Positions 36,542-51,191 of a stretch of 64,000 nucleotides of DNA are shown one piece after another. Origin of the DNA: Acidimicrobiaceae bacterium (GTDB taxonomy: Bacteria > Actinomycetota > Acidimicrobiia > Acidimicrobiales > Poriferisodalaceae); NCBI GenBank assembly GCA_905182565.1, contig CAJJCB010000026.1:434001-498000 (forward strand). The letters run 5' to 3'. The translations under genes were made by a program, and so were the position numbers. Positions within the stretch are counted from its first letter, which is position 1, and each line of letters starts with the position of its first letter. Below the pieces are notes generated by a model. That model searched no databases and was not told where the DNA came from. It was given only the letters and a program-made list of their open reading frames with translations.

Positions 36542-38200
36542 CTAATCTCTAGCTGGTAGATACCCGACCGCTTCTCGATCCCACGTAGATTTTGTTACCC
36601 CGGCGTCGCGTATTGCTTGTTTTCTCACTTTGCCCGACGCAGTTTTATCTAGTTCTGAAACAAATTCAAGGTAGCGGGGGATTGTGTGTCTTGGCATGCG
36701 CGGAGTACACCAATCTAAGAAAGTGACTGGGTCGGGGTGCCGACCTGAGACTGCAACAACGGCCTTGATCTCATCTTCACCTCCAGCACCCTCGACTTTT
36801 AAACCAATTACAGCTGATTCAGTAACGTCAGGGTGCTGATTAAGGGCCTGCTCAAGCTCATAACTCGAAATGTTTTCGCCTCTTCGGCGTATCCGGTCAT
36901 TGATTCTATCTACAAAAAAGAGTCGTCCTTCAGAATCGATTCTGCCTGCATCTCCAGTGTGAAACCAAAGATTACGCCATGCTTCCACCGTCTTATCCGG
37001 CATTTTGAAATAGCCAAGATTGAAAAAAAATGGTTCTTTCGGACGCACGAGTATCTCACCAATCGCGTCGACGGCGAGTTCTCTGTCAGTTTCCGGATCA
37101 GCGATGATGACTTTAAAAAAGTCTGAAAGAGGTGGGCCAGCGCAGCCAGCTATAACGGGATCATCAGGATCGCTGTAAGCCACCATGTTTACTTCTGTCA
37201 TACCGAAACCCTGTCGGAGGGCAACTCCGAATCTTTCTTCCATTGCCTCTCCCCATTCTTCAGCAACCGGAATAGCCATGATTCGTGTCAACTTGTGTAG
37301 TTGATCTCGAGGAGAGGGGGAACTTCGAAAAATAAACTCAGGCATGACTCCCAGAGCATTCGTAACAGTGGCTTCTTGATCGATAACAGTGTCTAGCCAA
37401 GACTTCACGCTGAAACGCTTAGTCACGTACGCCGAGCAACCAGCTAGCAGCGAGGCATAAACTTGCATGAATAGTCCATTAGCGTGAAAAAGTGGCATAC
37501 AGCAGAAGTAGCGATCTTCTTCTGTTAGCTCCATAGCAGCGACGGTGCCCAACGCAAAAAGATAACAGTGCCCCTGTGGCATCAACACGCCTTTGGCCGG
37601 TCCTGTGGTCCCTGATGTGTACATAATTGTGCAAACATCTTGTGGGGTGGGAGAGACAATAGCGCTGCTGTTTATTGGGCTGTTGGTGAGTGTTTCAATA
37701 TTGGTAGTTGGAATACCACGGTTGAGATTGCTGTTGAATTCTAATTTTTGTCCTTTGCCTACTAGCAAAATTTGTTTGATGCCAAGCGTTGGTAAGTCAA
37801 TTTCATTAAACCGGTTGAGTAGATCCTCATCGACAGCGACTATTAGCGGTTCGCTGTTTTCTACCTGGTGTTGAAGAAATGAACCTTTTAGTTCTGTGTT
37901 GATTGGAACAAAAATTGCGAGTCGTTTATGGACTGCGATCATAAGGAGAATAAAATCTCGACTATTTGTCATTAGCCCAAGCAATCGATCACCTGGCCCT
38001 AAACCTAATTCTTGAAGGCCGGAGGCTAACTGGTCAGTTAACTGATCAAGTGCTGCAAAAGTGAGAGTCTCACCATTCTCAAATGCGAGGAATTCTTTCT
38101 CTCCGTAGGATTTTGCCTGCATCTGAACAGCATCCACGAGGGTCCACTGTTCTATGGGAATATTGGGTCCAAGACTTTGTAGATCTGGGTGTCCTTTCAT
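36542..38200 (-). CDS. ATP-dependent acyl-CoA ligase (AMP-forming, CaiC-like)
   Basis: The 552-residue enzyme activates a carboxylic acid as an acyl-adenylate and then as a CoA thioester. The P-loop-like motif TIMYTSGTTGPAKGV, the A5-type motif RQGFGMTEVN, the WFHTGDAGRID motif and the C-terminal Lys in ASGKVRKQAI are all present. It resembles crotonobetaine/carnitine-CoA ligases, although the specificity is uncertain. It diverges from the Sec-peroxiredoxin gene with only about 26 bases between starts, so the two promoters must overlap the coding ends. The asparaginase gene follows on the same strand. Confidence 0.9.
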   Translation of the reverse strand: MKGHPDLQSLGPNIPIEQWTLVDAVQMQAKSYGEKEFLAFENGETLTFAALDQLTDQLASGLQELGLGPGDRLLGLMTNSRDFILLMIAVHKRLAIFVPINTELKGSFLQHQVENSEPLIVAVDEDLLNRFNEIDLPTLGIKQILLVGKGQKLEFNSNLNRGIPTTNIETLTNSPINSSAIVSPTPQDVCTIMYTSGTTGPAKGVLMPQGHCYLFALGTVAAMELTEEDRYFCCMPLFHANGLFMQVYASLLAGCSAYVTKRFSVKSWLDTVIDQEATVTNALGVMPEFIFRSSPSPRDQLHKLTRIMAIPVAEEWGEAMEERFGVALRQGFGMTEVNMVAYSDPDDPVIAGCAGPPLSDFFKVIIADPETDRELAVDAIGEILVRPKEPFFFNLGYFKMPDKTVEAWRNLWFHTGDAGRIDSEGRLFFVDRINDRIRRRGENISSYELEQALNQHPDVTESAVIGLKVEGAGGEDEIKAVVAVSGRHPDPVTFLDWCTPRMPRHTIPRYLEFVSELDKTASGKVRKQAIRDAGVTKSTWDREAVGYLPARD

Positions 38201-38226: not shown

Positions 38227-38682
38227 ATGCTCATGGAAATAGGACAGGTCGTTGAAAATTTTTCGGCTATTGATCAACGCGGTGAAAAAGTTGAGCTAAG
38301 TGACCTTTTAGAAGGTGGTCCAGTAGTTCTATTTTTTTACCCACGGGCGAGTTCACCTGGTTGAACTCGTGAAAGCCGCTATTTCCGTGATCTGGCGTCA
38401 GAGTTCGAACTCCTCGACTCGCAGCCGGTAGGAATTAGTGCTGATCAGTTTGATCGGCAAAAAGAATTTGATGACGCGAACGATCTCGGTTTCACTCTTC
38501 TAAGCGATGTGAAATCTAAGATTGCCAGATATTTTGGTGTTAAACGGGTGGGCCCTTTAGGCATCAAACGACAGACCTTTGTGATCGATGTCGATAGAAA
38601 AATATTAGGTGTAATCGCTAGCGAAACTAACATGAAAATTCATGCTGATCGAGCGCTGCAAATTTTGCAAACCAAAGATTAG
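38227..38682 (+). CDS. selenocysteine-containing peroxiredoxin (BCP/PrxQ-like), TGA read as Sec
   Basis: A 152-codon frame runs from ATG 38227 (or 38233) to TAG 38680-38682, broken only by TGA at 38362-38364. Read as Sec, the product is a peroxiredoxin: EIGQVVENFSAIDQRGE at the start, VVLFFYPRASSPGU as the active site where the family has YPxxxTPGC, then GISADQFDRQKEF and KRQTFVID with the conserved Arg. Sec46 replaces the peroxidatic Cys. There is no Cys anywhere in the protein and no resolving residue at +5 (Arg51), so it would be a one-Sec enzyme needing an outside thiol. Both sides of the TGA are conserved, which argues against a pseudogene. Confidence 0.85.
38365..38398 (+). promoter_or_regulatory. 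candidate SECIS hairpin for peroxiredoxin
   Basis: Just after the TGA, GCC (38375-38377) can pair with GGC (38393-38395), and an upper helix of AUU with GAU leaves a UCCGU loop with GU at 38387-38388. The G lies 23 bases after the TGA, within the range usual for bacterial SECIS elements. The helix is weak and has unpaired bases, so this is a candidate only. Confidence 0.4.
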
Positions 38683-38706: not shown

Positions 38707-39279
38707 TTAGCCGCGACCCATGGCGAAAAATTCGTTATTTGGTCTCATGGACGCTAAATGTGCCATTCGGTTCGAAAGAGCGAACAATGCGGTCACGGCT
38801 CCGATATCCCATATGTCTTCGTCAGAAAAATTGAAAGAGCGAAGTTCGTCGTGGTCGCTTGTGTTTACATCTTCGGGCGTGCGAGCCATTTTTAACGCAA
38901 AGCGAATCATTGCATGCTGGCGGTCGTCTAAATCGGCTTTGGCAGGGGCGATTGCTAGCTGATCAGCGATATAAGGATTTTTAGCCCGAATTCGTAGAAT
39001 TGCCCCGTGAGCAATTACGCAATACATGCAATCATTGGCGGCGCTGGTTGCGACGACGATCATTTCCCTTTCTGCTTTTGTTAAGCCGCTTTCTTTTTCC
39101 ATCAAGGCGTTGTGGTAATCCATGAAAGCTCGTAGTTCAGCCGGTCGATGTGCCAATGCTAGGAAAACGTTGGGTATAAATCCGGTTTTTTCTTGGAGGC
39201 TTTCCATCATGGTTCTTAGATCTTCTGGGATATCTGAAAGAGCTGGTATTGGAAAGGTGGAAATCGGAGGAAGGCTCAT
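38707..39279 (-). CDS. AhpD/carboxymuconolactone-decarboxylase-like peroxidase-related protein
   Basis: The 190-residue protein is of the 'uncharacterised peroxidase-related' branch of the AhpD/CMD superfamily. The redox motif CMYCVIAHG (CxxC followed by His) is intact, after the family segment LTKAEREMIVVATSAAN. AhpD relatives reduce peroxiredoxins or react with peroxides. The gene is convergent with the Sec-peroxiredoxin gene, 24 bases apart, so they are not one transcript, but the physical link makes an electron-donor relation worth testing. Inference only. Confidence 0.87.
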   Translation of the reverse strand: MSLPPISTFPIPALSDIPEDLRTMMESLQEKTGFIPNVFLALAHRPAELRAFMDYHNALMEKESGLTKAEREMIVVATSAANDCMYCVIAHGAILRIRAKNPYIADQLAIAPAKADLDDRQHAMIRFALKMARTPEDVNTSDHDELRSFNFSDEDIWDIGAVTALFALSNRMAHLASMRPNNEFFAMGRG

Positions 39280-39322: not shown

Positions 39323-40099
39323 CTAAAAATAACCGGCTTGTCTTCCGCCATAGGTGGCCCATTGACCTGTTCCGGCTGTGACTCCGCCGTCTACTGGTAT
39401 CGCAGCACCTGTTATGAACGACGAGTCAGGCGAGCAGAGGAAAGCTATTACGGCAGCTACTTCTTCAGGTTCGCCAAAGCGCCCGAGAGGCAACCTTGCT
39501 TCCATGGCCGAACCGATAGCAGTTCCCTCAGCTGCTTCAGTCAGTGCAGTTCTAGTCGGACCGGGGCACACAGCATTTACTCTGATGTTGAGATGTCCTA
39601 AATCCAGTGCAGCGGCTCGGCTTAAGTTAACAGCCGCTCCTTTAGATGCGTTGTAGGCCCATAGTCCGCTGTCTCCATGTAATCCCGAAACTGAGCCGGT
39701 TACTACTATCGAGCCTCCAGTTTTGGTCATAGCTTCCGCTGAAACTTTTATTCCGAGGGCTACGGCTCGGACATTTACGTCCATCACGCGATCGAAGTCG
39801 GCCATGGAGCCTCGCCGGATATCTCCTTGGACCAATATTCCTGCATTCAGAGCAACAGCGTCGAGAACTCCATAATTTTCTAATGCCGTCTTAACCATCT
39901 GATTGTTGGTGTTTTGTTCGGTGACGTCACCGGCCGATATAGATACGTTTGGGTAAGAATTGAACTGTGAGAGAGACTCTTCGGTCAAATCAACCGCAAT
40001 TACGTTTGCTCCGTCTTGGGCCAGTCTGAGAACTGTTGATCGACCGATCCCAGAGCCGGCACCAGTAACAATTATTGTCTTTCCTGCGTTCGTCGTCAT
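39323..40099 (-). CDS. SDR-family oxidoreductase
   Basis: This 258-residue short-chain dehydrogenase has the motif TGAGSGIGRST for NAD(P) binding, NAGILVQG, the catalytic Ser in VTGSVSGLHG and the Tyr/Lys in YNASKGAAV. The C-terminal ITGAAIPVDGG is typical. Its start overlaps the stop of the DUF1330-like gene by four bases (ATGA), so they form one translational unit. The substrate is unknown; the neighbourhood of amidohydrolase, DUF1330 and thiolase-like genes suggests breakdown of a cyclic or aromatic-derived acid. Confidence 0.9.
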   Translation of the reverse strand: MTTNAGKTIIVTGAGSGIGRSTVLRLAQDGANVIAVDLTEESLSQFNSYPNVSISAGDVTEQNTNNQMVKTALENYGVLDAVALNAGILVQGDIRRGSMADFDRVMDVNVRAVALGIKVSAEAMTKTGGSIVVTGSVSGLHGDSGLWAYNASKGAAVNLSRAAALDLGHLNIRVNAVCPGPTRTALTEAAEGTAIGSAMEARLPLGRFGEPEEVAAVIAFLCSPDSSFITGAAIPVDGGVTAGTGQWATYGGRQAGYF

Positions 40100-50088: not shown

Positions 50089-50216
50089 AAGAAACCGCGA
50101 TTTTTCACGGTTCTGCTTCATCTTAGATCCAAAGCTCACCAAAACCGTAATAAAACACCCGAAGCGTTAACTAGAGTTGTGACCGAACAGTTTTTTGGAC
50201 AAATAGGGGAACCAAT

Positions 50217-51191
50217 ATGTCAAGTGGAATGCAAGACCGCCTACCGCCAGTTGACTACATCCCGCGAATCACTGCCCAATATGCTGGACTGGGATATGGC
50301 GAGTACCGGTGGCTTGCGAGTGAAACTCAACCAGCTTGGACGCCCCTAACGAAGCCACTGTCGGAATGTCGACTTGGGTTTATAGCTACCGGAGGAATAT
50401 ACGCTTCAGGACAAACTGCTTTTCATTTCAAAGATGACACTAGCTATCGAGCGATTCCTAACAGTATTGCCACAGAGGAACTACGTGCTACTCATTTCGC
50501 GTACGACCTGACAGATGCCCGAAAAGACATAAACGTTGTTTTCCCAATCGAAGCCCTAAAAAGTATGGTTGAGGAGAAAAAAATAGCAGAGCTAGGACCG
50601 AACTCATACACCCTGATGGGTGGAATCTATAGTACGCGACGCGTCATCGAAGATCTTATTCCTTCTTTGGTTCAGAGGGTCTTGGATGATGAACTAGATG
50701 TAGTTCTGTTAGTGCCAGTTTGACCGGTATGCCACCAGACCGTGAGTCTGATCGCAAGAGCTATCGAAGAAGCAGGAATCCCGACGTTATCGATGTCTAG
50801 CGCCCGAGATATAACCCGTTCTGCATGGCCCGCTCGTTCCACCTATCTGGATTTTCCATTAGGTCACACAGCCGGGCGTCCGCATATGCCTGAGCTGAAC
50901 CGTGCAATCATACGCGATACCCTCTCAGCTTTTGAGACCTTAAGTGTTCCCGGTTCGATGAGTCACCTGTCTTATCGTTGGGATGAGAATGATCAATGGA
51001 AAGATAAAGTTTTTGCTCCCGCTGAGAAATCAGTTGACTCAGATCACCAGAAAAATAAAAATAATGGCTACGAAGACGATCGGGTAGCAAGGCATGACAC
51101 ACCGCAATATCAAACTGAGGCAGACGAGTTAGCTGCCTTCAAGAGTCATGGTGACGAAGAATGTGAGATTTGCATCGGCATTGACTTTTGA
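50217..51191 (+). CDS. selenoprotein of the glycine/D-proline reductase B family, TGA read as Sec
   Basis: One frame of 325 codons is broken by TGA at 50721-50723. With Sec it reads LLVPVUPVCHQTVSLIARA, i.e. Sec169 and Cys172 as a UxxC pair. I know relatives with CxxC at this site. The C-terminal part (EEAGIPTLSMSSARDITRS, DFPLGHTAGRP) and N-terminal part (RVIEDLIPSLVQRVLDDELD) both match the GrdB/PrdB-like family, which reduces C-N bonds of glycine, betaine, sarcosine or proline in the anaerobes where it is characterised. This short stand-alone form has no Grd/Prd partner nearby; its reaction is unknown. AGGGGA precedes the ATG. The stop overlaps the Nudix start (TGATG). Confidence 0.88.
50721..50750 (+). 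promoter_or_regulatory. SECIS hairpin downstream of Sec TGA
   Basis: CAGAC (50736-50740) pairs perfectly with GTCTG (50746-50750) around the loop CGTGA, which has GU at 50742-50743. The loop G is 19 bases after the TGA, within the range usual for bacterial SECIS elements. This supports selenocysteine insertion. Confidence 0.7.

Follow-up and report, generated by a model that had tools for sequence, protein, structure and literature searches.

The gene at positions 38227 to 38682 (+ strand) of the window, the whole 64,000-nucleotide stretch of DNA analysed here, is best read as a selenocysteine (Sec)-containing PrxQ/BCP-type peroxiredoxin from an actinobacterium of the Acidimicrobiales type that would work through a one-Sec cycle, in which an outside thiol reduces the selenenic acid much as in glutathione peroxidases (GPx). 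Judging from sequence, we give this reading a probability of about 0.8. Coding of Sec by this gene can be regarded as established at the gene level, and these bacteria have an established type of cysteine-free peroxiredoxin with a single predicted Sec. By all appearances the window gene is a member of one PrxQ clade, clade A, that has moved to this state.

The reading frame extends from the ATG at 38227, or more likely from the ATG at 38233 as in the orthologues, to the TAG at 38680-38682 and is interrupted once, by a TGA at 38362-38364 (+). Read through, it yields a product of 151 residues (MLMEIGQVV...FFYPRASSPGUTRESRYFRDLASEF...) with Sec at residue 46 and not a single Cys. The TGA occupies the peroxidatic position (SSPGU), for which Cys-type relatives use TGC or TGT. 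Five residues further on, in the motif SSPGUTRESRYFRD, the codon CGC (Arg, 38377-38379, +) stands in the place where nearly all relatives have TGC or TGT for the resolving Cys (CR). The initial annotation had described a TGA at the peroxidatic Cys position of a BCP/PrxQ-type peroxiredoxin, a protein lacking Cys throughout with Arg at +5, and a gene invisible to frame-finding. All of this was borne out: the TGA is in frame and lies within the Pfam AhpC-TSA match (8.8e-31), the absence of Cys and the Arg are seen directly in the translation, and standard ORF finding returned no + strand entry at 38227-38682. The enzyme would thus escape automatic annotation.

Both an AhpC-TSA/Redoxin domain and a peroxiredoxin fold are present. 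The top NCBIfam model was BCP/PrxQ NF006960, with 89 bits against an equivalog cut-off of 140, which makes the protein PrxQ-class but places it outside the equivalogs that this narrow model defines. Its AlphaFold model (pLDDT 85) is closest among solved structures to Mycobacterium tuberculosis BcpB (5epf), with a TM score of 0.90 and 49% identity over the Foldseek alignment. The active site, PRASSPGU, has T/S at -3 and Gly directly before the peroxidatic residue (CP), as in the PrxQ motif (PMC5302317, PMC5811025), with Sec replacing Cys. Sequence type, fold and a PxxxT/SxxC-type active site are therefore shared with BcpB and with the PrxQ of Corynebacterium glutamicum (PMC5811025), but the window protein has Sec for the peroxidatic Cys and Arg for the resolving Cys at +5; with no Cys there or elsewhere, it falls outside the 2-Cys (intramolecular) PrxQ type. 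PrxU (NF040737) is by name also a Sec-containing thioredoxin-dependent peroxiredoxin, but represents another Prx subfamily, the window protein scoring 22.6 bits against a cut-off of 270. A phage search for the window peroxiredoxin found distant peroxiredoxins only.

Sec-containing members of this Pfam family were described by Zhang and Gladyshev in 2006 and 2008 as 'Prx' (PF00578, TxxU), with 12 members in the 2006 genome set and 253 in the marine GOS data (PMC1794560, PMC2398784). They have in common with the window protein the Pfam domain and the T/SxxU motif at the peroxidatic position. Since Sec-PrxQ was already known, the unusual feature is the missing CR: the window protein is wholly Cys-free, whereas loss of the resolving Cys is not discussed for Sec-Prx in the passages of PMC1794560 and PMC2398784 consulted. 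What is new, as far as the sequences collected here indicate, is the Cys-free state together with a loss of CR confined, within clade A, to Sec forms.

In a first set of 41 related genomes, Cys was found at +5 in 16 of the 16 closest orthologues, so that the Cys-free state of the window protein is derived. The idea of a Cys-free Sec enzyme accordingly holds for the window member and not for its family, in which these close orthologues have kept CR. The survey was then widened to 298 genomes of the order, from which 128 distinct clade-A proteins were read. All 67 Cys-type proteins keep the +5 Cys, as do 54 of the 61 Sec-type ones. The remaining seven carry Arg, Lys, Ala or Asn at this position and have no Cys anywhere. 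Three extra Sec-type proteins that had been overlooked by the motif pattern carry the +5 Cys. It is likewise present in every locus from a named genome; most of these genomes are Acidimicrobiales MAGs, and the others come from further actinobacteria, Myxococcota and one Acidobacteria MAG. This set of related loci was retrieved partly by a pattern that included the +5 Cys and is therefore biased towards CR-containing members; the order-wide genome searches were run without that pattern and do not share the bias. Cys-type PrxQs lacking CR do exist (L023 and L250), so Sec is no precondition for the loss of CR in PrxQ at large.

When the active-site residues were masked for tree building, at least five changes were required to account for the absence of the +5 Cys, two of them forced by well-supported branches. 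Any association of Sec with CR loss would rest on few independent events, too few to give an independent-pairs test adequate power, since a sign test needs six or more independent pairs. In one-clade tests, a single origin of the losses in clade A was not rejected, and neither was the grouping of the window gene with its family. For the latter, synteny appears to be the better argument: the window locus and the CR-keeping family orthologues have a common arrangement in which the peroxiredoxin is preceded by a divergent AMP-forming acyl-CoA-ligase-like gene (36542-38200, -, recognized by the motif SGTTGPAKG and not by an HMM) and followed by a convergent gene for an AhpD-like/CMD-family CxxC protein (38707-39279, -) and a short-chain-dehydrogenase-like (SDR) gene (39323-40099, -, likewise assigned by sequence motif and not by an HMM). 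The loss of CR is then most simply the window gene's own. Elsewhere in the clade, one genus (g36) has the enzyme in both Cys and Sec forms (L175, L177-L179 and L188 versus L176, L180 and L185), a close switch that would be useful for enzymology.

It is unlikely, though it deserves weighing, that the Arg codon is an assembly or sequencing error and that the gene really encodes an ordinary Sec-PrxQ having both U and the +5 Cys. A single T>C transition separates CGC from TGC, Cys is found in all 16 of the closest relatives, and only one genome of the species could be compared, its genus mate being without the gene; in a single assembled genome, the Arg may reflect an error or a polymorphism. Against this, some Sec-type orthologues have Lys, Ala or Asn at +5, the window protein is free of Cys everywhere else, as are the six other CR-less clade-A proteins, and the sequence is without other damage.

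In the one-Sec cycle that we favour, UGA would be decoded as Sec by the SelA, SelB, SelD and tRNA-Sec that the genome encodes, and the Sec selenolate would reduce peroxide and be converted to selenenic acid, as suggested by the family. With no Cys, the protein could not make the customary intramolecular bond to position +5, so that an outside thiol would have to reduce the selenenic acid. In this lineage, having Sec as the peroxidatic residue seems to have rendered CR dispensable. Precedent comes from animal GPx, in which Sec is held to have abolished the need for a resolving Cys (PMC8614756). The Sec-type glutathione peroxidases and the window enzyme would be alike in having one Sec, no resolving Cys and an outside thiol as reductant, but they belong to different families, and the likeness would concern the working principle. 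If Sec-PrxQ drops CR by way of a fast-reacting selenenic acid and an outside thiol, the trade known from GPx would have arisen in another peroxidase family, in bacteria. The likeliest reductant would be a low-molecular-weight thiol, for instance mycothiol together with a mycoredoxin, or thioredoxin directly. In the C. glutamicum PrxQ, Cys54, the +5 Cys, is needed for thioredoxin-linked activity, and the mycothiol system was suggested by the authors for the C54S variant (PMC5811025). The window's genome has an MshC-like match of 410.6 bits and a mycoredoxin-like match of 64.2 bits, both below the curated cut-offs of 485.1 and 89.5, respectively, which makes mycothiol a lead and not a finding.

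The AhpD-like neighbour, which the initial annotation had put forward as reductant, would be a weaker candidate, and a one-Sec enzyme reduced specifically by this CxxC protein seems improbable to us. The adjacency itself is real and syntenic: the two genes lie convergently in about 15 family loci, and the neighbour matches a peroxidase-related enzyme family (TIGR01926). The functional part of the proposal fares less well, because the peroxiredoxin in those loci keeps its CR, the acyl-CoA-ligase and SDR genes are equally conserved there, AhpD-like homologues are also present in genomes without a window-type peroxiredoxin, and none was found beside L182 or L199, the CR-less relatives with enough flanking sequence.

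The Sec assignment was expected to stand or fall with conservation of the TGA in relatives and with the presence of a Sec machinery, and both were found. A TGA is present at the same codon in 17 of 17 orthologues from other species when all 39 genomes of the family were searched; in the first set of 41 it was found in all 12 same-family genomes having the gene, in addition to the window's own. Across the order, 35 of 118 matches bear TGA, and 67 distinct relatives have a Cys codon at this position. The window's genome encodes a tRNA-Sec (65.5 bits, anticodon TCA), adjacent SelA (392.5 bits) and SelB (270.9 bits), and SelD (348.5 bits). The SelD gene contains a TGA itself and its product is a selenoprotein (GUACKLG; L154, G000:C12:21547-22488). 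Four same-order orthologues of the first set have TGC at the Sec codon, and three of these four genomes lack a SelB above the cut-off and a strong tRNA-Sec match. The fourth genome (G036) has a Cys-type clade-A enzyme (L014) despite encoding tRNA-Sec and SelB; its enzyme of the second clade, clade B, bears TGA (L166).

That the gene is a pseudogene or truncated, the TGA being a plain stop and decay also accounting for the lost CR, is very improbable. The frame is indeed broken by the TGA and the end branch is long (0.59). However, the TGA sits at the identical catalytic codon in all family orthologues, and on both sides of it third codon positions differ about twice as frequently as first and second ones, a bias whose persistence 3' of the TGA indicates that the part of the protein beyond it is under purifying selection. 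In addition, the relative divergence of the peroxiredoxin matches that of its syntenic neighbours, so that the gene is not evolving faster and gives no sign of decay. With the complete Sec machinery also present, we rejected this explanation. Reassignment of TGA in this organism, for example to Trp, would also explain an in-frame TGA that is read through, but it is scarcely credible and was rejected, since the corresponding residue in relatives is Cys, tRNA-Sec and SelB are encoded, and other genes of the same genome terminate at TGA (e.g. BCP in L153).

The TGA thus being read as a Sec codon, a bacterial SECIS hairpin would be expected at about 38365-38430 (+), a putative region defined by position only. 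SECIS elements were sought by single-sequence folding, by an ungapped helix scan comparing Sec with Cys orthologues, and by consensus folding with column-shuffle controls. Folding of 38365-38410 revealed no significant structure, and the 69 nt from the window UGA gave a z-score of -0.17, folding no better than shuffled sequences. No element common to the family was found by folding, helix scan or consensus folding. Consensus folding reached significance solely for Sec orthologues from outside the family, in the form of a hairpin about 40-54 nt 3' of the UGA, which is farther than bacterial SECIS elements usually lie. The Cys-to-Arg change falls inside the region where the SECIS loop may lie.

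Clade B, the second Sec-PrxQ clade (motif TPGUTxxGxG), occurs across the order, with TGA in 54 of 55 matches. The +5 Cys is absent from 62 of the 63 distinct sequences read, of which 45 are wholly Cys-free. Clade B thus resembles the window protein in having Sec at the peroxidatic position, a +5 Cys that is nearly always absent and mostly no Cys at all, but it branches off deeply as a clade of its own, at about 33% identity, and is CR-less nearly throughout and not by recent loss. The window's own genome has such a second Cys-free Sec-PrxQ (TPGUTIQGGG), located outside the window (L151:1791-2246; G000:C26:122290-122742). The only Cys-type clade-B sequence found, L250 (G162:C200), is without the +5 Cys and would therefore be a 1-Cys form.

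More broadly, we consider it an even chance that Sec has repeatedly freed PrxQ from CR in this order, giving rise to a class of single-Sec, Cys-free peroxiredoxins served by an external thiol. Such a class would comprise the window gene, the six other clade-A members and clade B, and would be a bacterial parallel to the mutual exclusion of Sec and resolving Cys in GPx. As orthologues with Cys and CR, with Sec and CR, and with Sec but no CR are available, syntenic within one family, the benefit of Sec to a peroxidase would become directly testable with this panel.

Other selenoprotein genes were noticed as well. The window contains a PrdB/GrdB-like one at 50175-51188 (+), with a TGA at 50721 in the motif VPVUPVC (UxxC); its product matches TIGR04483 at 5.5e-46, below the cut-off, and the Pfam GRDB model above its cut-off. 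Elsewhere in the same genome, L152:1337-2356 (G000:C14) encodes a fusion of a DsbD_N-like domain with a SelL/TlpA-like redox domain that contains Sec (VWUPPC), and TGA-containing matches similar to this protein recur in many relatives.
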